Below, piece after piece: positions 1-12,321 of a stretch of 16,349 nt of DNA; within the stretch, counting starts at the first letter, position 1; the number at the start of each line of letters is the position of its first letter. The translations under genes and the position numbers were made by a program. The notes under the pieces are model-generated. The model saw only the letters and a program-made list of their open reading frames with translations. It was not told where the DNA came from and searched no databases. This DNA comes from an uncultured Rubrobacteraceae bacterium (GTDB taxonomy: Bacteria > Actinomycetota > Rubrobacteria > Rubrobacterales > Rubrobacteraceae): the NCBI GenBank assembly GCA_902806015.1, contig CADCUZ010000016.1:1-16349 (forward strand), written 5' to 3'.

Positions 1-221
1 GCCCCTCGCAGGTGGGGAGGATAGCGCCGGAACTCTCGGCCCGGTGGGACAGGGAACGGAGGGTGGGGGTCGTAATTTCGCTTCTAGGGGACCACCACAT
101 CCCGCTGGGCTCGCTCGTCTCCCGTAGGGTGCCGTTCGGGGAGGCGCCCGGGGTTTACCGGATGCTCGACAGGGGCAACCACGGGGCCGTGCAGGTCGTC
201 TTCGACTACGGGGAGGGTTGA
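1..221 (+). CDS. Zinc-type alcohol dehydrogenase-like protein, C-terminal fragment
   Basis: Only the last 72 residues are inside the window; the reading frame is open from base 3 and the start lies upstream. The visible part reads SQVGRIAPELSARWDRERR, then a stretch ending SRRVPFGEAPGVYRMLD and AVQVVFDYGEG. In zinc-dependent medium-chain dehydrogenases this is the end of the Rossmann half and the last catalytic-domain strand, where 'xHRxPFEEAxEAYxLLD' is a common pattern. Catalytic zinc ligands and the NAD(P)-binding glycine motif are not visible, so cofactor and substrate cannot be judged. The stop codon overlaps the ATG of the next gene by one base (TGATG), so it is translationally coupled to the pterin-synthase-like gene and probably works in the same pathway. 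Family assignment is from memory of this tail pattern and is fairly secure; the substrate is unknown. Confidence 0.75.
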   Translation, partial: PSQVGRIAPELSARWDRERRVGVVISLLGDHHIPLGSLVSRRVPFGEAPGVYRMLDRGNHGAVQVVFDYGEG

Positions 222-601
222 TGTACGAGGTATACGTCGCGGCGCCGTTCGAGGCGGCCCACCGCCTGAAGGGGGAATGCTTCGGGCCGGCGGCCCGCAC
301 CCACGGCCACACGTACAGGCTCGAGTCGGTGGTGCGCGGCGAGGATCTGGCCGAAGACGGGAGCTTGCTGGATGTAGGCGAGCTCCGCGGGACGGTGGAA
401 GGGGTGGCTGCCCTCCTGCACTACCGGGATCTCGACGAGGTCCCAGGACTCGCGGGCAAGAACACCACCGCCGAGGTAGTGGCGGGGTTCTGTTGGGATG
501 GGATCTCACCTTCCCTCCGGGGGCGTGGACTCGCCACCCTCACGGTGCGGGTCTGGGAGTCGCCGCAGGTCTACGCCGCCCGCGAGGGGGCCCTCGGCTG
601 A
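221..601 (+). CDS. 6-pyruvoyl-tetrahydropterin synthase / QueD-like protein
   Basis: Encodes 126 residues, close to the usual 120-140 for the T-fold family that acts on dihydroneopterin triphosphate. Family marks are PFEAAH with the first zinc histidine (H14), the HGH pair (H28, H30), NTTAEVVA in the place of the family's 'pTxEnlA', and the pterin-anchoring glutamate in VRVWESP (E113). Two things differ from QueD and animal PTPS. The only upstream cysteine (C20) is seven residues before HGH rather than three. The catalytic Asp-His pair of 'LDHRxLNE' reads His-Tyr (LHYRDLDE, H67-Y68). The zinc site and pterin anchor are therefore kept while the classical proton-relay residues are not, so the reaction may differ from both tetrahydrobiopterin and queuosine synthesis. 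ATG 221 is preferred over TTG 218 because it overlaps the upstream stop. No other queuosine genes are nearby. Confidence 0.85.
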   Translation: MYEVYVAAPFEAAHRLKGECFGPAARTHGHTYRLESVVRGEDLAEDGSLLDVGELRGTVEGVAALLHYRDLDEVPGLAGKNTTAEVVAGFCWDGISPSLRGRGLATLTVRVWESPQVYAAREGALG

Positions 602-603
602 CC

Positions 604-1650
604 TTGCGCGTCGCCTCTGTCACGGTGGGGGACCCGGACCGTCTCACCGGTGGCTACCTGTACAACAAGCGCCTTGCTGAAGGACTGGTGGAGAACGGTG
701 TGGAGGTGCAAGCCTTTGTTCCCTGCGGCGCGGAACCGGGGGACCAGGCCGCGACGGCGACGGCTTTCGGCGACGGGTTCGACCCCTCCCGGTTCGACGC
801 CGTGGTGGTGGACGCGCTCGCCCGCGTCGTCGTCGCCCCCCACCTGGACCGTTGGAGATCCGGCCGTCCTGTCGTGGCGCTGGTCCACGAACTGCCCGGC
901 GTCGCCGACCCCTCCTCTGACGACCGGGAGCGTTTGCTCGAGGTGCCCCTCCTCAGGTCGGACCGGCTCGTCACCGTAAGCCGGCACGGCGGTGAGGTCT
1001 TGCTGGGCAGGGGAGCCCCCGCCGCGCGCGTCCGCGTCGTCCCGCCCGGCTTCGACAACCTGGGTCGTCATCCGGAAGTGAAGCCTCGCGAGGCAGAGAA
1101 GATCCCGCGTGTCCTGTGCGTGGCGCAGTGGATCCCACGCAAGGGCGTTCTCGACCTCGTCCGGGCCTGGCGGACGGTGGGTGGGACCGGCGCGGTCCTC
1201 GACCTCGTCGGCGAGACCGGCGCCGACGCGTCTTACGCGGCAAAGGTGCGGGAGGCCGCGGCGGGGGACCCCTCGATCACCGTTCACGGGCCGGTCGACG
1301 ACGCTACCCTCGCCGGCCTCTACGCCTCTGGCGCCCTCTTCGCGCTGCCCTCCCGCTACGAGGGCTACGGTATCGTCTACGCCGAGGCGCTCTCTTTCGG
1401 GCTCCCCGTACTCGCCTGCCGGGCAGGGCCGGTCCCCGAGGTCGTCGGCGGGCAGGCCGCCCTGCTCGTCCCACCGGGAGACACGGACGCTCTCTCTGAA
1501 GCGCTGGGCCGCCTCCTCTCGGACGGCGGGCTCAGGGAGGAGATGTCCGCCGCCGCGCGACGCCGGGCCGCCGGTCTTCCGCGCTGGAAAGACACGGTGG
1601 AGGGATTTCTCGCGGTGTTGCGGGGGGCCATCGAGGAGCGGGGAAGATGA
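604..1650 (+). CDS. GT4-family glycosyltransferase
   Basis: Encodes about 348 residues with a GT-B layout. The N-terminal half begins LRVASVTVGDPDRLTGGYLY, with the glycine-rich acceptor loop (GGYLYNKRL), and contains VALVHELPG and SDRLVTVSRHGGEVLL. The C-terminal donor half has VLCVAQWIPRKGVLDLVRAW, the EX7E-type element in SRYEGYGIVYAEALSFGLPV, and VGGQAALLVPPGD. These are hallmarks of retaining GT4 transferases that use NDP-sugars. I place the start at TTG 604, just after the previous stop; CTG 598 is possible, and GAGGGGG at 584-590 could serve either. The frame is open further upstream, but that part is a shadow of the pterin gene. The stop overlaps the next ATG (ATGA). Its position between a pterin-synthase-like gene and a methyltransferase suggests it glycosylates a small molecule rather than a polysaccharide; that is inference. 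No signal peptide or membrane segment is visible. Confidence 0.85.
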   Translation: MRVASVTVGDPDRLTGGYLYNKRLAEGLVENGVEVQAFVPCGAEPGDQAATATAFGDGFDPSRFDAVVVDALARVVVAPHLDRWRSGRPVVALVHELPGVADPSSDDRERLLEVPLLRSDRLVTVSRHGGEVLLGRGAPAARVRVVPPGFDNLGRHPEVKPREAEKIPRVLCVAQWIPRKGVLDLVRAWRTVGGTGAVLDLVGETGADASYAAKVREAAAGDPSITVHGPVDDATLAGLYASGALFALPSRYEGYGIVYAEALSFGLPVLACRAGPVPEVVGGQAALLVPPGDTDALSEALGRLLSDGGLREEMSAAARRRAAGLPRWKDTVEGFLAVLRGAIEERGR

Positions 1651-2519
1651 GCGGGCCGGGGGAGCACGGCCCGCGCGCCCAGAACCGACGTTCGTGGAAC
1701 GCGGTCGTGGGGGCGCACGAAAGCCACCGCGGGGACCTCGCAGGTTTCCTCAAGGCCGGCGGCTCCACGCTCTTTCCCGAAGAACTCCGACTCCTTGGCG
1801 ACCCGTCGGGCCGAACGGTGGCGCACTTGCAATGCAACTGCGGGGGCGACTCGTTGAGCCTCGCCCGCCTCGAGGCGGAGGTGACGGGCGTGGACCTCAG
1901 CGATGGGGCGGTACGCGCGGCCCGCCGCCTCTGTGAGGCGAGCGGCGTGCCGGCCCGGTTCGTCCGCGCCGACGTGTACGAGTGGCTGGCGGAGACCGCG
2001 AAGGGTGGTGCCCGCTTCGATACAGTCTTCGCCTCCTACGGCGTCGTCTGCTGGCTGCCGGATCTCACCTCCTGGGCCGGTGGAATAGAGGGTGTCCTGG
2101 TGCCCGGCGGACGTTTCGTGCTCGTGGACTTCCACCCGGCCGCGGACGTCTTGGACGAAGGCTGGTACCTCGCGCGCGACTACCCATCCGGCGGAGAACG
2201 GCTGATCCTCGAAGAGGGCGTCGGCGACTACGTAGCCGCCTCCGGCGGCGGGCTCACGCCCGCCGGCTTCGTGGAGGGCGCCGATGGGTTCGAGAACCCC
2301 GAACCGTGTTACCTGTTCCGGTGGGGGCTCGGAGAGGTCCTCACCGCCCTGGCCGGGGCTGGGCTACAGATAACGGCCCTCGAAGAGTACCCATACTCCA
2401 ACGGGGAGCGGCGTTATGCGGGCATGCGCGAGTTGCCCGGACGGCGGATGGCCCCGCCGGAGGGCGTGCCCGCCCTGCCCCTCATGTACGGGGTACGGGC
2501 TGAGAAAAGCGGCCGCTAA
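1647..2519 (+). CDS. Class I SAM-dependent methyltransferase
   Basis: Encodes 290 residues. The start ATG 1647 overlaps the previous stop (ATGA) and follows a GAGGAGCGGGGAAG ribosome-binding region. SAM-binding motif I is HLQCNCGGDSLSLARL (around residues 60-75), followed by the acidic strand end VTGVDLSDGAVRAARRL with D83 likely contacting the SAM ribose. Motif II/III-like elements follow as FDTVFASYGVVCWLPDL and LVPGGRFVLVDFHP. The 'HLQCNxGxDSLSLA' form of motif I occurs in a small-molecule methyltransferase group in which Cys-Asn replaces the usual GCG. The C-terminal third (after about residue 170) has no motif I recognise and probably forms the acceptor pocket. As the last gene of the operon it probably methylates the product of the preceding enzymes. 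It converges on the antiporter gene with a gap of only 14 bases. Confidence 0.85.
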   Translation: MSGPGEHGPRAQNRRSWNAVVGAHESHRGDLAGFLKAGGSTLFPEELRLLGDPSGRTVAHLQCNCGGDSLSLARLEAEVTGVDLSDGAVRAARRLCEASGVPARFVRADVYEWLAETAKGGARFDTVFASYGVVCWLPDLTSWAGGIEGVLVPGGRFVLVDFHPAADVLDEGWYLARDYPSGGERLILEEGVGDYVAASGGGLTPAGFVEGADGFENPEPCYLFRWGLGEVLTALAGAGLQITALEEYPYSNGERRYAGMRELPGRRMAPPEGVPALPLMYGVRAEKSGR

Positions 2520-3663: not shown

Positions 3664-4422
3664 TTGATCGATTACCACCTGCACGTCATAGCCCACGACG
3701 ACCGCCCGATGACGGTCGAGAACATCCTGAGCTACTGCGAGGTGGCGAAGTCCAGGGGCGTGCGCCAGATGGGGATCACGGAGCACGACCGCTACCTGGA
3801 CAAGATAGACGTCGCCGCCTTCCAGGAGGCGAGGGAGGGGATCAGAAACGTGGGGCTGCGCCTCGGCATCGAGGTAGACTTCGTCCCCGGCCAGGAAGGG
3901 CGGATGGACGCCGACTCGACGGCGCTCCCCTACGACTACGTGATAGGCTCCGTTCACCGCGTGGACGGAGCCGAGGTGGACCGGGCCACCGACCAGAGTG
4001 TCTACGAGCGCTACGAGACCTACGAGCTCTACGCGGCCTACTACAGCAACGTCCGCGAGGCCGCCCTCTCGGGGCGCTTCGAGGTCATAGGGCATCCCGA
4101 CCTCATCAAGATTTTCCGCCGCTACCCGGACAGGGACATCACCCCGCTGCTGGAGGAGACGGCCGACGCCGTCGCCGAGTCGGGCGTCGTCGTGGACGTG
4201 AACGCGGCGGGCCTAAGGAAGCCGGTGGGCGAGATCTACCCCTCACGGAGGTTTTTGGAGATGTTCCACCGCCGCGGCGTCCCCATCATCCTCTCCTCCG
4301 ACGCCCACGCACCCGGGGAGGTCGCCGCCGGCTACGACAAGAGCCTGAAGCTCGTCCACGACGTCGGCTACCGCGAGGTCGCCACCTTCGAGAACCACGA
4401 ACGCAGCTCCCTCTCGCTGTGA
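3664..4422 (+). CDS. PHP-domain phosphatase, HisJ (histidinol-phosphatase) family
   Basis: Encodes 252 residues with the full set of PHP metal-binding motifs in order: DYHLH (H5, H7), GITEHD (E40, H41), GIEVDF (E70), GSVH (H98), GHPD (H144) and SSDAH (D213, H215). This arrangement forms the trinuclear metal site of HisJ-type phosphoesterases, which hydrolyse L-histidinol phosphate in the ninth step of histidine synthesis. Length and motif spacing match HisJ rather than polymerase-type PHP proteins. No other his gene is in the window, so the true substrate may be another phosphate monoester. The start is TTG 3664, which gives the expected short N-terminus before HLH and has GGAG about ten bases upstream. 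The stop overlaps the GTG of the next gene (GTGA), indicating co-translation with the tRNA-editing protein. Confidence 0.87.
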   Translation: MIDYHLHVIAHDDRPMTVENILSYCEVAKSRGVRQMGITEHDRYLDKIDVAAFQEAREGIRNVGLRLGIEVDFVPGQEGRMDADSTALPYDYVIGSVHRVDGAEVDRATDQSVYERYETYELYAAYYSNVREAALSGRFEVIGHPDLIKIFRRYPDRDITPLLEETADAVAESGVVVDVNAAGLRKPVGEIYPSRRFLEMFHRRGVPIILSSDAHAPGEVAAGYDKSLKLVHDVGYREVATFENHERSSLSL

Positions 4423-6081: not shown

Positions 6082-7168
6082 AGGCCCCGGCCTCCCGCAG
6101 CGCCCCCGCAACCCGGAACGGGTCCGAAGCGACCACCGGGGCCGCGTACAATTCCATGGCCCCGATATCCGAGGTGCGGTTGGTCGGATCGCCGCGGTCC
6201 ACGATGTGGACGACGGTCGGGAAGCCCGTCCAATCTTCTTCGGCGGGCGCGAGCGGCGGCATGTAGAAGGCGACGTTGAAGGCTCGGGCGCCGAGGTCGC
6301 CTACGAACAGGCGCAACAACGCCCCGACGGTCCGGTGCAGGGCCGCGTCCCCCGGTTCGGGGCCGATCACCACGAGCTCCTTCTCCTTTACGGGCGTGAG
6401 GCTGGCGAACGCCTTGACGCCCTCCTCAACCGGAACGCCGAGGCCCAGCGCCTCGTGCGCCCGGTAGAGGTCCCCGAAGTAGTCCGTGCGGTGCTTGGAG
6501 CGGTATCCGGCGGCGGCGCGACGGAGGCGCTCGACTTTGGGGTAATGGGCGCCGCGGGTGGCGGTCACCTGGGCATGGCCGTGGATGATAGAGCCGCCGG
6601 CCCGCCAGAGGCAGTTCCACATGAGGAAGGGGTACTTCGCCTCCGGGTCGGCCCCGACGGCCCTGCGGCACCACTCAAGGCCCACGCAGACGTAGTCCGA
6701 GACCTTCCCGGGCGTCAGGTGGAGGGGGTTGTGCTCGTCGAAGACCACGACGCCGTGGAAACCGTCGTACTTGGCGATGTTCGAGGCGGTCGTGGCGTGT
6801 TCGCCCTCGACGCGGCCGAAGACGTCGGCCGGGGTGCCTTCCACGGGACGGCAGAACGGGTCCCCTTCCGTGGCGGCTATCTCGCGGTCGAGGTCGAGGC
6901 TCACGCCGGTATCCAGCGGGCGGGAGGCGCGGAGCTCGTTGAAGAGGGTGCCTTCCAGGGTGATCCTGTTGGTCACCTTGACGATGCGCTGCTCGGTCAC
7001 GGCGTCCACGGAGCCGAAGGACTTCTCGATCCAGGGTCGCATGACCTCCGGCGGGTCGAGGCGTCCGGTCGTGGCGGAGGTGTTCAGGATGCGCTCGGCG
7101 AGGGCGCGGTCCGCCGGGGGGAGGCCTTCTATCAGGGCCGGAAGGTCAGCGATGCTGGGCTCTCTCAT
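6080..7168 (-). CDS. GalT/HIT-superfamily nucleotidyltransferase-like protein
   Basis: Encodes 362 residues. The key motif is WRAGGSIIHGHAQVTATRGA with H196-G-H198-A-Q200, matching the 'GxSxxHPHxQ' active site of galactose-1-phosphate uridylyltransferase, whose second histidine carries the covalent UMP. Upstream are KVTNRITLEGTLFNELRASR, GDPFCRPVEGTPADVFGRVEGEH and YDGFHGVVVFDEHNPLHLT, resembling the first HIT-like repeat. Downstream lie LTPVKEKELVVIGPEPGD and AFNVAFYMPP. The second proline of HPH is Gly here (HGH), so it is outside classical GalT and nearer to GalT-like phosphorylases or nucleotidyltransferases. ATG 7168 has GAGGAG seven bases upstream; the open frame beyond it is non-coding. 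It lies 181 bases after the fusion gene and probably has its own promoter. A sugar-nucleotide role in the disaccharide cluster is inferred; the exact substrate is unknown. Confidence 0.75.
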   Translation of the reverse strand: MREPSIADLPALIEGLPPADRALAERILNTSATTGRLDPPEVMRPWIEKSFGSVDAVTEQRIVKVTNRITLEGTLFNELRASRPLDTGVSLDLDREIAATEGDPFCRPVEGTPADVFGRVEGEHATTASNIAKYDGFHGVVVFDEHNPLHLTPGKVSDYVCVGLEWCRRAVGADPEAKYPFLMWNCLWRAGGSIIHGHAQVTATRGAHYPKVERLRRAAAGYRSKHRTDYFGDLYRAHEALGLGVPVEEGVKAFASLTPVKEKELVVIGPEPGDAALHRTVGALLRLFVGDLGARAFNVAFYMPPLAPAEEDWTGFPTVVHIVDRGDPTNRTSDIGAMELYAAPVVASDPFRVAGALREAGA

Positions 7169-7196
7169 CCTGCTCCTCTGCTGGTCTCGTGCGCGA

Positions 7197-7210
7197 CGCG
7201 GCACATTATG
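7197..7210 (-). promoter_or_regulatory. Candidate -10 element for the GalT-like gene
   Basis: The 181-base gap upstream of the GalT-like start contains CATAAT on the minus strand (7205-7210), five of six matches to TATAAT, which would start transcription near 7197 and leave a leader of about 30 bases. No good -35 is visible at 16-18 bases. Read-through from the fusion gene is equally possible. Confidence 0.35.
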
Positions 7211-7349
7211 CAGGCCGGAGGCTCGGCCGTGCTTGGGGCTCCCGCCGCTTACGGAACCGGAGAACCCCCACCCGGGGTCGTCCTCCCCCGGCAGGGGCTC
7301 CGCCAGGGAACCGCGGAAGAGGCGCGACCCCAACGCCTCCTTCGCCGGG

Positions 7350-9818
7350 CTACGCCCTCTGGTCGGCCCCCTGTTCGAGCCGGCGGTAGAGCGTCTCGCG
7401 GTCGATCATGCGCTCGACGTGGCCCTCCATCCCGAGCTTGAGCGCGGCGACCTCGTGGGCGAAACGCACGCTCGTCGGCCAGTCCTTGCCGTCGAGGTGG
7501 GCGACGAGCAGCGCCGACCAGAAGGCGTCGCGGGCGCCGGTGACGCTCTGCACGTTCACCTTGGGCAGGGGGCCCACCCGCTCCACCGAGGAGCCGTCTG
7601 AGACGACCACCACGCCGCCGCTGCGGGTCATCACGACGACCTGCGCCCCGAGGTCGTGGAAGGTGTCCAGGCACGCCTCCTCGAGCGCGTCGTCGCTCAT
7701 GTTCGGGTCGAATAGGCGCCTGGCGTCTTCGAGGGAGGGCTTGACGATGGTGGCGTAGGGGAGGACCTCGGCGAGCACCTCCCAGGCCTCCTCGCGGTCG
7801 GGCCACACGCGCGGGTCGTAGTTCGGGTCCAGGGAGACGACCTTGCCGAGCCTGGCGCCGAGCCGCATGGCCCTCCTCACGGCCAGCCGCTGCGGGTCGC
7901 GGGAGAGGGCGAAGGCCGAGGTGTGGACGGCCCGTGCCCGCTCGACGAGCTCGTCCGGAACCTCCCTGATGTTAAGCAGCGCGTCTGCGCCGCGGTTGAC
8001 TTGGAAGTCCGGCACGTTGACGGTCCTGGTGACGAAGGCGTTCGTGGTCGGCTCTCCCGGCGCGCGATGGACGCCCTCCGTGGAGACGCCGTGGCGTCCG
8101 AGCTGATCCTCGACGAACTCGCCGAAGTAGTCAGCGCCGACCTTTGTGATCACCGCCGAGCGACCGCCGAGCTTAGCGACGTAGACGGCGACGTTGGCCG
8201 GCTGGCCGCCCAGGTAGCGCGAGAACCTGTCGGCGGTCCTGAGCGAGATCCTGAACTCGTGCGAGATAAAGTCCACGAGCGACTCCCCGACCGCGAGCAC
8301 GTCTAGCCCGAAGTACAGCCTATCCAGCGTCTCTAGCGAGGTCCCCTCGTCCGAGCCGGGGTCTGTGAAGTACTTCGGGCTCTCCAGCCGTACCCGAGGC
8401 GTTGGGAAGCCGTCGGCCGGGTCCTCTTCCCCGACCCTTCTCTCCTTGGCTATTGCGTCCAGGTACCCCTCGGCGGTGCGCTCCCAGGTGTACTTGGCGA
8501 GCACGCGCCCGTATCCGGCCTCGGCGTAGCGGCGCCACCGCCCGACGTCGCCCACGACGGAGTAGAGGCCCGCCGCGACCTCCTCGGGGTCGCCCGGGTC
8601 CACAAGTAAGCCGTACTCCTCGTCCCCCTCGCGCAGGGACTCGCTCGGCCCCCCATTCTTAGTGACAACCGCCGGCAGGCCGGCCGCCATCGCCTCCAGC
8701 GGCGCGAGCCCGAACGGCTCGTAGTTGGCAGTAAGCGCGAAGACCGAGCGCCGTTCGGAGAGGAAGCGGTAGGCGGCGGCCAGGCGCCGCTGCCCCCGTA
8801 CGGCGAACATCGAGACCATGCCGCGCATCCTGGCCCGATCCATCGTCTCCATGATCCCGTCGAGCACGGCCCGCTCGCCGTCGTCGGCGTCACTGTAGTC
8901 CTCCAGTGGGTTTTCCATGTTGCCCGTGAGGACGACCAGGTTCGCGCTCTCGCGCAGGGTCGGGCTGCTGGCGAAGGCCTCGACGAGCGCCCGGTGGTTC
9001 TTTTTCGGGTCGAGCCGGCTTGAGGCGACGACGCACGGTAGGCCTACGCGCTCCGGGTCGAGGTCGCGCTCCAGGCAGGCCAGGACGTGCCCGCGCACCG
9101 CCCCTTCGTCGTCCGCGCGGGAGTTTTTGTCGAAGATGTGCATAGCGACGCCGGGGGGCACGGCGGCGAAGTGGTCCCCGTCCATGGGGTCCACGGCTCC
9201 GCGGTAGGCGTTGTGGGTGTACTGGACGAAGCGTTCCTGGCCCGTGCTTGTGACGTTGAGCCGCGAGCGGTTCATCGCCAGCCGCTCGGCCACGATGCGC
9301 TTCGAGAAGTGGTACTTCTTATCGGTCTCCGCGATATCGCGGCGGCGCACGCCCATCTTGTCCATCTTTTGGGCTCCTAAAGAGTGGGCCGTGAAGCTGA
9401 ACGGGATGCCGGTCCGATCCTCGATGAGGACCGCGCACAGACCGCCGTCCCCGTAGTGCGAGGTAACGGTGTCGGGCAGCGAGTCCTCGCGCTCGTAGAA
9501 GGAGAGCAGGTTCGGCACGAACTCGGTGCCCAGGTAGGGCCAAAGCTCCTCTTTGGGGAGGAAGCCGTCGGGACCGCAGGGGACACGGAGTATCCGCACG
9601 TTCTCGTGGCCGGGGTAGGCGTCGGTCTCCCCGGCGAACTCGGGCCACTCCGGGTCGACGACGCGGCGGGTGACGATGTCCACCCTGTGGCCGAGGTTGC
9701 CCATCGCGAGCGCCAGCTCCTTGACGTAGACGAGCTGGCCACCGAAGTCCGGGTGGGCGGTCCAGTACGAGTCTTCGGGGTCGAAGTTGCCCTGCGGGTT
9801 GATAAACGCTACGTGCAT
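7350..9818 (-). CDS. Sucrose-phosphate-synthase-like glycosyltransferase fused to PfkB sugar kinase
   Basis: Encodes 822 residues. Residues 1-460 are a GT4 glycosyltransferase of the sucrose-phosphate/mannosylfructose-phosphate synthase type: HPDFGGQLVYVKELA near the N-terminus, FTAHSLGAQKMDKMGV (H145, K151), RIVAERLAMNRSRL, SRLDPKKNHRALVEAF, and NYEPFGLAPLEAMAAGLP (E367, E375) followed by TKNGGPSES. In this family the first three elements bind fructose-6-phosphate and the last the NDP-sugar. After a linker (about 460-504), residues 505-822 form a PfkB kinase with DVLAVGESLVDF, YLGGQPANVAVYVAKLGG, SLDPNYDPRVWPD and VKPSLEDARRLF. Its anion-hole motif reads TGARDAF (R763, D764) instead of GAGD. 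It sits 19 bases after the upstream glycosyltransferase, preceded by GAGAGGA. The fusion could channel fructose-6-phosphate directly to the transferase, if the kinase is active. Confidence 0.88.
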   Translation of the reverse strand: MHVAFINPQGNFDPEDSYWTAHPDFGGQLVYVKELALAMGNLGHRVDIVTRRVVDPEWPEFAGETDAYPGHENVRILRVPCGPDGFLPKEELWPYLGTEFVPNLLSFYEREDSLPDTVTSHYGDGGLCAVLIEDRTGIPFSFTAHSLGAQKMDKMGVRRRDIAETDKKYHFSKRIVAERLAMNRSRLNVTSTGQERFVQYTHNAYRGAVDPMDGDHFAAVPPGVAMHIFDKNSRADDEGAVRGHVLACLERDLDPERVGLPCVVASSRLDPKKNHRALVEAFASSPTLRESANLVVLTGNMENPLEDYSDADDGERAVLDGIMETMDRARMRGMVSMFAVRGQRRLAAAYRFLSERRSVFALTANYEPFGLAPLEAMAAGLPAVVTKNGGPSESLREGDEEYGLLVDPGDPEEVAAGLYSVVGDVGRWRRYAEAGYGRVLAKYTWERTAEGYLDAIAKERRVGEEDPADGFPTPRVRLESPKYFTDPGSDEGTSLETLDRLYFGLDVLAVGESLVDFISHEFRISLRTADRFSRYLGGQPANVAVYVAKLGGRSAVITKVGADYFGEFVEDQLGRHGVSTEGVHRAPGEPTTNAFVTRTVNVPDFQVNRGADALLNIREVPDELVERARAVHTSAFALSRDPQRLAVRRAMRLGARLGKVVSLDPNYDPRVWPDREEAWEVLAEVLPYATIVKPSLEDARRLFDPNMSDDALEEACLDTFHDLGAQVVVMTRSGGVVVVSDGSSVERVGPLPKVNVQSVTGARDAFWSALLVAHLDGKDWPTSVRFAHEVAALKLGMEGHVERMIDRETLYRRLEQGADQRA
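9528..9681. repeat. 154-bp direct repeat, copy in the fusion gene
   Basis: This block is identical base for base to 11038-11191. It encodes residues 47-97 of the fusion protein (DIVTRRVVDPEWPEFAGETD through WPYLG). Immediately outside it the two genes diverge at both DNA and protein level. Perfect identity including synonymous positions indicates recent gene conversion. Confidence 0.95.
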
Positions 9819-9837
9819 CCGCCCATCCTCTCTGTCG

Positions 9838-11328
9838 TTACCCTGCCGGGCGCTCCCCTTGGGTCTCCCATCCCCGAAGCCGCGGCAGCCCCGCCGGGGC
9901 CGGCCGCCGGGCGAATTCGGGGATGGGGAAGGAGGGGTCCCCGCCCCTCTCCCCGCGCGCGGCCTCCCCCGCCAGCTTCAAGTAGCCTTCGGCGGTGCGG
10001 CGCCAGTTGTAGAGGTCGCGGGCCCGTTCGAGGCCCTTGCCAGCGTAGGCCTTCCAGGTCTGCCGGTCTGATAGGAGGCGCAGCAGCTTCGCGGCGATGT
10101 CCCCGGGGTCGTGGGGGTCCGCGAGGAGGCCGGCCCGCCCGCCGTCGGTAGTCTCCTGCGGGCCGCCGTTCTGCGTGACGACCACGGGGAGGCCGACGGC
10201 CATCGCCTCGACAACCGTCATGCCGAAGGGCTCGTACTCGGCGGGGAGGCAGAAGACGCCGCCCGTCTCCGCGCCCCAGCGGTAGAGGGCGGCCAGTGCC
10301 GTCTGCCCCGAGAGGCCGAAGGCCGAGATGCCGCCCCACAGGTTAGAGCGGTCTACGGTCGAGATCAGGGCGTCCAGGAGGGGACGCTCCTCGTCCGAGG
10401 CGCCGCCGGGGTCACGCAGCGGGTCGTCGAGGCCGCGCGTGATGACGAGCAGGTTCGCCCGCTCCCGGAGTTCGGGGTTGCTGGCGAAGGCCTCGACGAG
10501 CGCCCGGTGGTTCTTTTTCGGGTCGAGCCGGCTCCAGGCGATAACGGCCGGCAGGTCCCGCCGCCCCGGGTCGATGTCTCGCCCGTGGGCGGCCCGGATG
10601 CGTTCCCGGTTCTCTCCTTCGTGCGGGCCCCGTGCGTCAGGGTCGAAGATGTCGAAGTTCACCCCGGGCGGGATCACGGCGAAGCGCCCATCGTCCTCGA
10701 CGTCCACTGCGCCGCGGTAGGCCGGGTGGTCGTACTGCTCGCGGCGCTCGGCCTCGCTGTTCGCCACGTTCGCCGCCGAACGCGCCATCGCCGCCCGCTC
10801 CGCCCCCAACCGCGCCCCGAAGTTGTACCGGGCGTCGGCCGTTGATAAATCGTCTGGGCCCTGCAGGAGCCCGTCGAGCTTCCAGGCCCCGAGCGAGTGG
10901 CCCGTGAAGGTGAAGGGAACGCCCGAGGCCTCCGCCAGCAACGCCGCCGCGAGGCCGCCGTCCGCGTAGTGGCCGGTCCAGAGGTCGGGCCAGGAACCTT
11001 CCCTCCGGTAGAGTTCGGCCACGCCCCCCGCCCACTCGCCCAGGTAGGGCCAAAGCTCCTCTTTGGGGAGGAAGCCGTCGGGACCGCAGGGGACACGGAG
11101 TATCCGCACGTTCTCGTGGCCGGGGTAGGCGTCGGTCTCCCCGGCGAACTCGGGCCACTCCGGGTCGACGACGCGGCGGGTGACGATGTCCGCCTGGTGG
11201 CCCATTTTTTCGAGCACCCGGGCGACCTCCCGAACGTAGACGAGTTGGCCGCCGAAGTCCGGGTGGGAGGCAAGGTAGCTGTTGCGCGGGTCGAAGTTCC
11301 CTTGCGGGTTCACGAAAGCGACGCGCAT
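9838..11328 (-). CDS. Sucrose-phosphate-synthase-like glycosyltransferase
   Basis: Encodes 496 residues, a paralogue of the glycosyltransferase half of the adjacent fusion but without a kinase domain. It has SHPDFGGQLVYVREVA, FTGHSLGAWKLDGLL (H144, K150), RLGAERAAMARSAANVANSE, SRLDPKKNHRALVEAF, and EYEPFGMTVVEAMAVGLPVV (E366, E374) followed by QNGGPQET. Acceptor-side residues of the sucrose-phosphate synthase type are kept, but GAQKM has become GAWKL and the donor loop is QNGG rather than KNGG, so donor or acceptor may differ from its partner. The C-terminal 40 residues are Pro/Arg-rich and look disordered. ATG 11328 has GAGGA eight bases upstream. It starts 27 bases after the standalone kinase and is certainly co-transcribed. 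Residues about 47-97 are encoded by DNA identical to the fusion gene. Whether the two act as a heteromer or make different products is unknown. Confidence 0.87.
   Translation of the reverse strand: MRVAFVNPQGNFDPRNSYLASHPDFGGQLVYVREVARVLEKMGHQADIVTRRVVDPEWPEFAGETDAYPGHENVRILRVPCGPDGFLPKEELWPYLGEWAGGVAELYRREGSWPDLWTGHYADGGLAAALLAEASGVPFTFTGHSLGAWKLDGLLQGPDDLSTADARYNFGARLGAERAAMARSAANVANSEAERREQYDHPAYRGAVDVEDDGRFAVIPPGVNFDIFDPDARGPHEGENRERIRAAHGRDIDPGRRDLPAVIAWSRLDPKKNHRALVEAFASNPELRERANLLVITRGLDDPLRDPGGASDEERPLLDALISTVDRSNLWGGISAFGLSGQTALAALYRWGAETGGVFCLPAEYEPFGMTVVEAMAVGLPVVVTQNGGPQETTDGGRAGLLADPHDPGDIAAKLLRLLSDRQTWKAYAGKGLERARDLYNWRRTAEGYLKLAGEAARGERGGDPSFPIPEFARRPAPAGLPRLRGWETQGERPAG
11038..11191. 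repeat. 154-bp direct repeat, copy in the standalone glycosyltransferase gene
   Basis: Second copy of the block at 9528-9681, offset by 1510 bases, in the same reading frame and strand. A shorter perfect match of 55 bases also links the genes at 8966-9020 and 10479-10533, over the region encoding SRLDPKKNHRALVEAFAS. Confidence 0.95.
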
Positions 11329-11355
11329 CCGGCCGTCCTCAGCTTTCCTGCGGGT

Positions 11356-12321
11356 TCATTTTTCCTCCCCGTCGGCTTCTTCGTCCAGACAGGCGTAGAT
11401 CTCGTCGCGGTCGATGTCCGCGGGGAGGGGTCCCTTCGTGGTGAGCTTCCGCTCGACGATCTCGCGGGCGAAGAGGACGGACCGCTCGACCTCGTTGCCG
11501 TCAAGGAGCGCCGTCAGGAAGCCGGCCCAGAAGGAATCCCCGGCGCCGGTGGCGTCGACGACCTCGACGGGGCGGGCAGGGACGTGGGCCGTGATCTTGC
11601 CGTTCTCCGAGACCAGGTTCCCCTCGGCGCCCATTGTGAAGATGACGGTCTCGGGGCCGAGGTCGTGGAACATCTCGATGTACTGCTCGGGCTCGTGGTC
11701 CGGGCCGAAGACGCGCCTGGCGTCGTCCGCGGAGGGCTTGGTAACGTTGACGTGGCGGTAGGCCTCGCGGATCACGCCCTGCGCCTCCTTGTAGTCCGGC
11801 CAAACGCGCCGGCTGTAGTTGGGGTCGAGCGAGACGATCTTGCCCATCTCCCGCGCCTTTCGGAAGGTCCCTATGACTGCCGAGCGGCACGGCTCGCGCG
11901 CGAGGGCGAAGGTCGAGGAGTGGACGACCTTCGCGCGGTCTATAGCCTCCTCGGGAATTTCCTTGGACTCAAGCAGAAAGTCGCCGATGCGGAATTCCTC
12001 GAAGTCCGGGGTGGCCGCGGTGGAGGAGACGAAGATCACGGATGTGTTCGTCCTATGGTCCATCTGCAGGTAGTCGGTGACGACCCCGTGGCGTTGTAGC
12101 TCGCTTTTTAAGAACTTCCCGAACGCCCCGATGCCGGTCTTGGCGATCACCGCCGACCGCCCCCCGAGCTTGGAGACGTAGACTGCGATGTTGGCCGGAG
12201 ATCCCCCAAGGTACCGCTTGAACGTGGTCGCGTTGCTCAGGGTGTCGGTCTTCTCGGCGGAGATAAAGTCGACCACCATCTCCCCGATGGTGAGGACGTC
12301 TAGTTGTTGGTCGGCGGCCAT
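11356..12321 (-). CDS. PfkB-family carbohydrate kinase (probable fructokinase)
   Basis: Encodes 321 residues, a normal PfkB length. Motifs in order are DVLTIGEMVVDFI (substrate strand), YLGGSPANIAVYVSKLGG (first PfkB signature), SLDPNYSRRVWPD, TKPSADDARRVFG, FTMGAEGNLV, and the second signature DATGAGDSFWAGFLTALLDG with the anion hole G259-A-G-D262, where the aspartate is the catalytic base. All are intact, in contrast to the fused paralogue. Next to sucrose-phosphate-synthase-like enzymes, a fructokinase making fructose-6-phosphate is the most economical role. 2-Keto-3-deoxygluconate or inositol-pathway kinases share these motifs and cannot be excluded. It is the first gene of the cluster. 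There is no Shine-Dalgarno before ATG 12321, and a -10-like TAATCT ends eight bases upstream, so the mRNA may be leaderless. Confidence 0.88.
   Translation of the reverse strand: MAADQQLDVLTIGEMVVDFISAEKTDTLSNATTFKRYLGGSPANIAVYVSKLGGRSAVIAKTGIGAFGKFLKSELQRHGVVTDYLQMDHRTNTSVIFVSSTAATPDFEEFRIGDFLLESKEIPEEAIDRAKVVHSSTFALAREPCRSAVIGTFRKAREMGKIVSLDPNYSRRVWPDYKEAQGVIREAYRHVNVTKPSADDARRVFGPDHEPEQYIEMFHDLGPETVIFTMGAEGNLVSENGKITAHVPARPVEVVDATGAGDSFWAGFLTALLDGNEVERSVLFAREIVERKLTTKGPLPADIDRDEIYACLDEEADGEEK

Follow-up and report, generated by a model that had tools for sequence, protein, structure and literature searches.

Gene layout at the left end of the window

The stretch of DNA analysed here (the window, 16,349 bases), which we judge to be Rubrobacter-like by its relatives, carries at its left end four forward-strand genes that overlap or nearly abut, encoding a dehydrogenase, a protein of the 6-pyruvoyltetrahydropterin synthase (PTPS) family, a GT4-type glycosyltransferase and a methyltransferase. 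The first is a C-terminal fragment of 72 codons plus stop (3..221), a zinc-less, BchC-like member of the medium-chain dehydrogenase/reductase family whose 5′ part is cut by the window start. Its stop codon TGA (219-221) shares a base with the ATG at position 221 of the gene for the PTPS-like T-fold protein (221..601, 126 residues; TGATG), and 2 nucleotides separate the stop of the latter from the TTG start of the glycosyltransferase gene (604..1650), which in turn overlaps by four bases (ATGA) with the ATG-started gene for a class I S-adenosylmethionine-dependent methyltransferase (1647..2519). This arrangement confirms the overlapping quartet of the preliminary description; we use the word operon for gene overlap and order only. 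Pfam supports the three complete genes as PTPS (PF01242), group 1 glycosyltransferase (PF13692, PF00534) and class I methyltransferase domain (PF08242, PF13649). The dehydrogenase fragment alone (3-218) gave no Pfam match and is 41–79% alike to full-length dehydrogenases encoded just upstream of the PTPS-like gene in related loci. To judge from these relatives, in which a stand-alone RibD_C gene and then a folB gene (dihydroneopterin aldolase) occupy the corresponding place, the gene set continues past the left edge of the window; BLAST with RibD_C and FolB as queries found no match inside it.

The PTPS-like protein lacks the signatures and the triad of PTPS and QueD

The 126-residue protein passes the Pfam cut-off of PF01242 and belongs to the T-fold proteins; GTP cyclohydrolase I (GCH I) and FolB also match in a fold search, with lower Z scores (about 9-10), as expected within the T-fold superfamily. 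With the QueD profile of NCBIfam (TIGR03367) it scores 47.6 bits, under the cut-off of 89.25. The signatures of the family, as set out in the relevant part of PMC5041015, are CxxxHGH for PTPS-I/QueD, CxxxxxHGH for PTPS-II (biopterin) and ExxHGH for PTPS-III (folate). None of these three occurs in the window protein, which reads FGPAARTHGH: the place of the PTPS-II cysteine is taken by glycine and that of the PTPS-III glutamate, three residues before HGH, by alanine, the latter position being threonine, serine or alanine across the close family shown.

Residues were compared in an alignment of 174 sequences (120 database homologues, 46 loci and 8 Streptomyces-type sequences, among which database rows and loci may overlap) with 10 canonical sequences as controls. 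The position of the catalytic cysteine, Ala24 in the window protein (codon 290..292, + strand), is alanine in all 174 (120/120, 46/46 and 8/8) and cysteine in 10/10 controls. At the positions of the triad aspartate and histidine the window protein carries His67-Tyr68 (419..424, +); tyrosine replaces the histidine in 165 of the 174 sequences (113/120, 45/46 and 7/8), and the aspartate position is mostly histidine, elsewhere aspartate or asparagine. The pterin-anchoring glutamate, Glu113 (557..559, +), is kept in 174/174 (120/120, 46/46 and 8/8) and in all 10 controls. The metal-site histidines are also kept in nearly all sequences outside the Streptomyces type, the first being His14 (260..262, +; 120/120 database homologues and 44/46 loci) and the second and third lying in His28-Gly-His30 (302..310, +; both in 120/120 and 46/46). 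The third is alanine in 8/8 Streptomyces-type sequences (HGA), whereas the window protein keeps HGH.

In a tree the PTPS-like family is separated from 13 canonical proteins with a support of 100/100. With the catalytic triad gone, the chemistry of PTPS and QueD is not expected, and by its motifs the 126-residue protein is neither; on motifs, cut-off and triad together, QueD as well as the tetrahydrobiopterin-type and folate-type PTPS were rejected. The earlier statement that the quartet does not match queuosine or folate synthesis is borne out by the motifs of this protein. Database homologues, where named, are called 6-carboxy- or 6-pyruvoyltetrahydropterin synthase.

Conservation of the gene set in related genomes

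A species-genome collection scanned with the 126-residue protein contained 103 places that encode relatives, and among the best 80 of these, which were kept, 23 (L001-L021, L024, L025) are assigned by motif to the close family. In the relatives the quartet forms the right-hand portion of a longer series comprising FolB, stand-alone RibD_C, dehydrogenase, PTPS-like protein, glycosyltransferase and methyltransferase. It is found in Rubrobacter, Chloroflexota and Thermomicrobiales, so that the initial restriction to actinobacteria has to be dropped. A relative of the window protein is encoded in 26 of 301 Chloroflexota genomes, and a relative of Streptomyces coelicolor SCO6650, discussed below, in 35 of the 296 Rubrobacter-phylum genomes (both types counted). 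In Rubrobacter-type loci the folB gene, together with an acyltransferase gene and often a major facilitator superfamily (MFS) gene, occupies the strand opposite to that of the RibD_C, dehydrogenase, PTPS-like, glycosyltransferase and methyltransferase genes. This set is intact on the large contigs (2.9-4.4 Mb) of L106-L110, among which L106 is most closely related to the window (89% in the PTPS-like protein; nearest tree row). The order in Chloroflexales, on a single strand, is methyltransferase, FolB, RibD_C, dehydrogenase, PTPS-like protein, glycosyltransferase. Six other Chloroflexota regions (L151-L154, L156, L161) hold compact RibD_C-dehydrogenase-PTPS-like sets, with a glycosyltransferase gene adjoining in five.

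Linkage was counted in 45 family loci (L001-L021, L024, L025, L106-L110, L112, L113, L142-L149, L151-L156 and L161) from 44 genomes, L007 and L014 sharing one. The count excludes L150 (the same place as L025), L157, L158, the Streptomyces-type regions (six), L162, which came to light later, and the 3-kb loci L081-L100 and L117-L141. Partner genes were identified by running BLAST with selected queries against six-frame open frames, a procedure that may miss unlike partners, and several of the 45 loci sit on short contigs. Up to a distance of 4.5 kb from the PTPS-like gene, a glycosyltransferase gene was present in 44/45 family loci versus 5/57 ordinary PTPS/QueD loci (those in L007 and L014 being weak opposite-strand matches), a dehydrogenase gene in 41/45 versus 0/57 and a RibD_C gene in 37/45 versus 1/57. 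FolB (30/45), methyltransferase (24/45) and acyltransferase (19/45) were each found in 0/57 control loci, and RibA in 10/45 family loci (9 genomes) versus 1/57. Since the linkage of dehydrogenase and glycosyltransferase is far above that in ordinary PTPS/QueD loci, the adjacency is not due to chance and the quartet is a widely conserved unit, a result that the preliminary description had named as support. Of the 33 loci that extend 2.6 kb or more to either side, 22 have FolB together with methyltransferase, 10 have neither and one has FolB alone; this co-occurrence is moderate evidence because four of the ten loci with neither (L014, L016, L025, L145) are without the whole left half.

The acyltransferase gene adjoins folB in 17/18 Rubrobacter-type loci, the exception, L010, ending at folB; in L146-L148 it is found close to ribA. 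Many Rubrobacter-type loci also have a Tet-like MFS gene with it, and the two could serve acylation and export. A gene for a HisJ-family phosphoesterase lies 2-4 kb after the PTPS-like gene, 3′ of the methyltransferase gene, in nine Rubrobacter-type loci (L001, L003, L006, L012, L106-L110) and is not found in L009. Its counterpart in the window, at 3664..4422 (+), encodes a PHP phosphoesterase scoring 221.7 bits against the NF005596 cut-off of 202 (NCBIfam); the enzyme could be a pathway partner that removes a phosphate, or could serve histidine synthesis. In one Chloroflexota cluster (L142:6755-11300) the PTPS-like gene occurs twice, at a distance of about 4 kb, and in two Chloroflexota genomes (L157, L158) no queried partner gene lies near the gene for a PTPS-like protein of the Streptomyces type.

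The linked cyclohydrolase is GTP cyclohydrolase II

The preliminary description had named a nearby GTP cyclohydrolase gene as support for a pterin product. Such a gene is linked in part of the family, and it encodes GTP cyclohydrolase II (GCH II, RibA), not GCH I. In L012, L154 and L162 ribA lies immediately upstream of the RibD_C gene on the same strand, L162 having the order RibA, RibD_C, dehydrogenase, PTPS-like protein, glycosyltransferase (a match in two frames) and methyltransferase. The linked proteins of L012 and L154 are GCH II by profile (TIGR00505, 241.5 and 231.9 bits against a cut-off of 205.85), with the three cysteines kept. RibBA was seen as long open frames in Rubrobacter-type genomes. 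Stand-alone RibA-RibD_C pairs with a Tyr-type RibA (L163:4213-5555, L165:6853-8165) were seen in two genomes that also hold a full cluster. Of the 36 cluster genomes searched, 34 have GCH I (PF01227), away from the cluster: the nearest copy that shares a contig with it is about 64 kb distant (G507), split assemblies leaving the distance undefined elsewhere, and G451 and G432, whose completeness is unknown, gave no match. The idea that the cluster replaces a missing GCH I was abandoned on this count.

RibA is found in 5/6 Streptomyces-type regions. The residue at the position of Escherichia coli Tyr105 is methionine in four Streptomyces-type regions, in which a creatininase-family gene lies beside ribA, and tyrosine in 11 clusters with no creatininase match in the stretch at hand. 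SCO6655, a Met-type GCH II, reportedly yields a formamidopyrimidine, which is said to be owed to the methionine that replaces tyrosine. We suggest on this basis that the creatininase could be a deformylase for the Met-type RibA, in which case all versions of the cluster would meet at 2,5-diamino-6-ribosylaminopyrimidinone phosphate (DARPP).

Partner enzymes

No deaminase domain was found in the four cluster RibD_C copies scanned, so that the 2-amino-4-oxo pattern of pterins would stay in place. The nearest structures in the PDB are of ArfC type (1.2e-33, 2e-32), with Rv2671 at 8.6e-9; the view of RibD_C as a plain dihydrofolate reductase (DHFR) analogue was lowered since its ArfC kin are far closer. 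Full-length copies of the dehydrogenase are ADH_zinc_N proteins by Pfam, their best NCBIfam profile being BchC (76-78 against a cut-off of 291), and the cysteine and histidine positions that we take to be the catalytic-zinc ligands are changed in 24/24 aligned copies. BchC oxidises a secondary alcohol. The linked FolB exceeds the TIGR00525 cut-off of 72.15 bits in L106 (103.6) and L015 (94.5), and in the L106 copy the residues that presumably form the aldolase site align, leaving it intact in that copy. Against the PDB the window glycosyltransferase matches MshA (2.5e-20) better than the cyanobacterial tetrahydrobiopterin glucosyltransferase (BGluT; 2.1e-7). It is by homology a generic GT4 enzyme, only distantly related to the dedicated cyanobacterial enzyme on which the first pterin-glycoside idea had drawn. 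The methyltransferase has MitM as its nearest PDB match (2.1e-9).

Comparison with known systems

The nearest solved structure to the window protein, by both sequence and fold, is SCO6650 of S. coelicolor (PDB 3d7j, released 2008), which has likewise lost the triad cysteine and histidine and kept the glutamate. The window protein shares the features of SCO6650-like proteins: a lost triad, the pterin glutamate, and dehydrogenase and glycosyltransferase neighbours. Six Streptomyces-type regions carry the dehydrogenase, PTPS-like and glycosyltransferase genes in the same order; Streptomyces has a sister cluster around SCO6650. It differs in the alanine at the third metal position (8/8), in having no FolB or methyltransferase match, in the Met-type RibA with creatininase of four regions, and in genes for an LPG-synthase-like protein and a CDP-alcohol transferase. 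In L101, L102, L103, L104 and L111 this LPG-synthase-like membrane protein and the divergent CDP-alcohol transferase are encoded beside the dehydrogenase-PTPS-like-glycosyltransferase trio, hinting at a lipid link; we take L101-L103 and L111 to match the neighbourhood of SCO6650. SCO6650 is reportedly inactive as a PTPS, it and SCO6655 are said to have been studied singly, and we know of no role for SCO6650-type proteins.

With QueD and PTPS-I, -II and -III (COG0720) the window protein has PF01242, the T-fold, the metal histidines and the pterin-anchoring glutamate in common, but not their three motifs or the triad. The ArfA/ArfB/ArfC enzymes that start archaeal riboflavin and F420 synthesis resemble the cluster in combining a GCH-type enzyme with a RibD_C to which the deaminase-less cluster protein is nearest and, for the Streptomyces type only, a creatininase-family protein. 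The cyclohydrolase of the cluster is, however, a bacterial RibA, its creatininase and RibD_C score under the ArfB and ArfC cut-offs, and PTPS-like, dehydrogenase and glycosyltransferase genes follow. Bacterial pterin glycosides are known from cyanobacteria, according to a passage of PMC13259868. The cluster resembles the BGluT system in a GT4 enzyme adjoining a pterin-type protein, and differs from it in an only distantly related glycosyltransferase, the absent PTPS-II motif and a linkage to GCH II instead of GCH I.

A proposed pathway and its alternatives

Taken together, the gene set, its linkage and homology, the lost and kept residues and the family-level identity of RibA, RibD_C and FolB point to a conserved, undescribed bacterial pathway, of which the quartet is one end and which probably makes a sugar-decorated, pterin-like compound from GTP. 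The former suggestion of a glycosylated or methylated pterin gains from the adjoining FolB, the retained glutamate and the cyclohydrolase linked in part of the family. We found no description of this cluster in the openly licensed papers searched. That the route runs from GTP via a GCH II/ArfC-type pyrimidine to a glycosylated and, in many lineages, also methylated pterin-type metabolite is a reading on which we are evenly divided; its last four genes would be those held by the window.

We infer the substrates and the order of steps as follows. GCH II, clustered or supplied by the RibBA of riboflavin synthesis, would open GTP to DARPP, and the stand-alone ArfC-like RibD_C reductase would convert its ribosyl to a ribityl group with the 2-amino group retained. 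The BchC-like dehydrogenase would then oxidise a secondary hydroxyl of the ribityl chain. GCH I, itself a T-fold enzyme, forms a 1-amino-1-deoxypentulose by Amadori rearrangement and then closes the ring; the oxidation, if it takes place at C2′, would give the same intermediate. The triad-less T-fold protein would bind the 2-amino-4-oxo substrate via Glu113 and, with its metal site, condense the ketone with the 5-amino group to a dihydropterin ring. It would be a reasonable catalyst of ring closure because its pterin pocket is kept and the closure by GCH I is also the work of a T-fold enzyme. FolB may trim or epimerise the side chain, the GT4 enzyme would add a putative sugar, and the methyltransferase would place a methyl group to complete the putative product. 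The full version of this scheme, in which GCH II, the ArfC-like reductase and the zinc-less dehydrogenase build the pterin ring independently of GCH I, the triad-less T-fold protein closes it, FolB trims the resulting dihydropterin, and glycosylation and methylation lead to an undescribed compound (a cofactor, a pigment or something exported) in Rubrobacter and Chloroflexota and, in variant form, in Streptomyces, is tentative and rather unlikely.

Several observations weigh against this route. GCH I in 34/36 genomes leaves no gap that needs a GCH II route. As no RibA is nearby in 35/45 family loci, these would have to draw DARPP from RibBA. RibD_C falls under the ArfC equivalog cut-off (TIGR01508, 186.45 bits; L106 145.4, L154 150.6), and the creatininase, which has MftE rather than ArfB as its closer kin, is under both cut-offs, which keeps the deformylase step a suggestion. 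The metal histidine is lost in the Streptomyces type (8/8), so that metal-assisted ring closure cannot be general, and the six compact clusters are without FolB and methyltransferase.

FolB, present in 30/45 loci, is readily explained if the product derives from GCH I: FolB would act on dihydroneopterin, RibD_C would be a dihydropterin reductase, the PTPS-like protein and dehydrogenase would shape the side chain, and glycosyltransferase and methyltransferase would finish a pterin glycoside as in cyanobacteria. We hold this to be possible though on balance unlikely. The near-universal GCH I and the distant GT4 kinship to the tetrahydrobiopterin glucosyltransferase speak for it, as does Rv2671, Pfam kin of RibD_C, which the title of a paper cited in PMC10530724 calls a functional analogue of DHFR. 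But RibD_C resembles ArfC far more than Rv2671, the compact clusters lack FolB, and the linkage of RibA is left unexplained, GCH II and not GCH I lying beside the cluster in part of the family. The linkage of both RibA and RibD_C would instead suit a ribityl-pyrimidine glycoside, a side product of the riboflavin branch without a pterin ring, for which RibA and RibD_C would supply the pyrimidine, with the PTPS-like protein serving only to bind or rearrange it and dehydrogenase and glycosyltransferase modifying the chain. The lost triad of pterin side-chain chemistry agrees with this, and the compact clusters would need only RibD_C, dehydrogenase, PTPS-like protein and glycosyltransferase. We consider it improbable, since FolB with an intact aldolase site occurs in most large clusters and has no obvious task on a pyrimidine, and since the pterin-anchoring glutamate is kept in 174/174, though this residue could hold a pyrimidine too.

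A folate-related role, in which the cluster FolB would supply folate while the remaining genes provide for salvage or storage of its precursors, appears very improbable. The cluster FolB is the sole FolB match in 15 of 19 genomes that have any, many of them incomplete metagenome-assembled genomes; yet the Chloroflexus-type genomes G014-G017 have FolB without an HPPK match, and G007, G009 and G010 carry a separate FolB beside HPPK. That an ordinary QueD or PTPS gene merely lies beside unrelated genes, as the database names would have it, can be set aside almost completely in view of the absent signatures, the lost triad, the score under the QueD cut-off, a linkage far above the control and the fully supported split from canonical proteins. 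Supply of a cofactor for aromatic amino acid hydroxylase was rejected as a general role: PF00351 occurs in 5/16 cluster genomes, all Chloroflexota and none Rubrobacter-type.

The proposed pathway from GTP would be conserved across two or more phyla and have a sister form in Streptomyces; its key protein bears a QueD-type name in databases despite a rebuilt active site. Working it out would assign a role to SCO6650-type proteins, account for the additional GCH II gene that some of these bacteria carry and perhaps uncover a new way of making the pterin ring.

Other observations in the window and its relatives

Chloroflexus-type genomes encode a tandem double PTPS protein (about 280 residues; L160:9442-10299) beside GCH I, the second domain of which bears the PTPS-II signature CxxxxxHGH, and some of them encode an aromatic amino acid hydroxylase. 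G014-G017, the genomes of L015-L018, gave neither an HPPK match nor a clear DHFR_1 match. On the reverse strand of the window, a 417-residue open frame (6083-7333) has no Pfam match at 1e-5 and has relatives in nearby Rubrobacter-type loci. Also on the reverse strand, the stretch 7353-12321 groups a GT4-PfkB fusion gene (822 residues) with another GT4 gene and a stand-alone PfkB kinase gene. The two glycosyltransferase genes share a 233-nt direct repeat of 91% identity (9528-9760, 11038-11270), which looks as if it arose by recent duplication or conversion.

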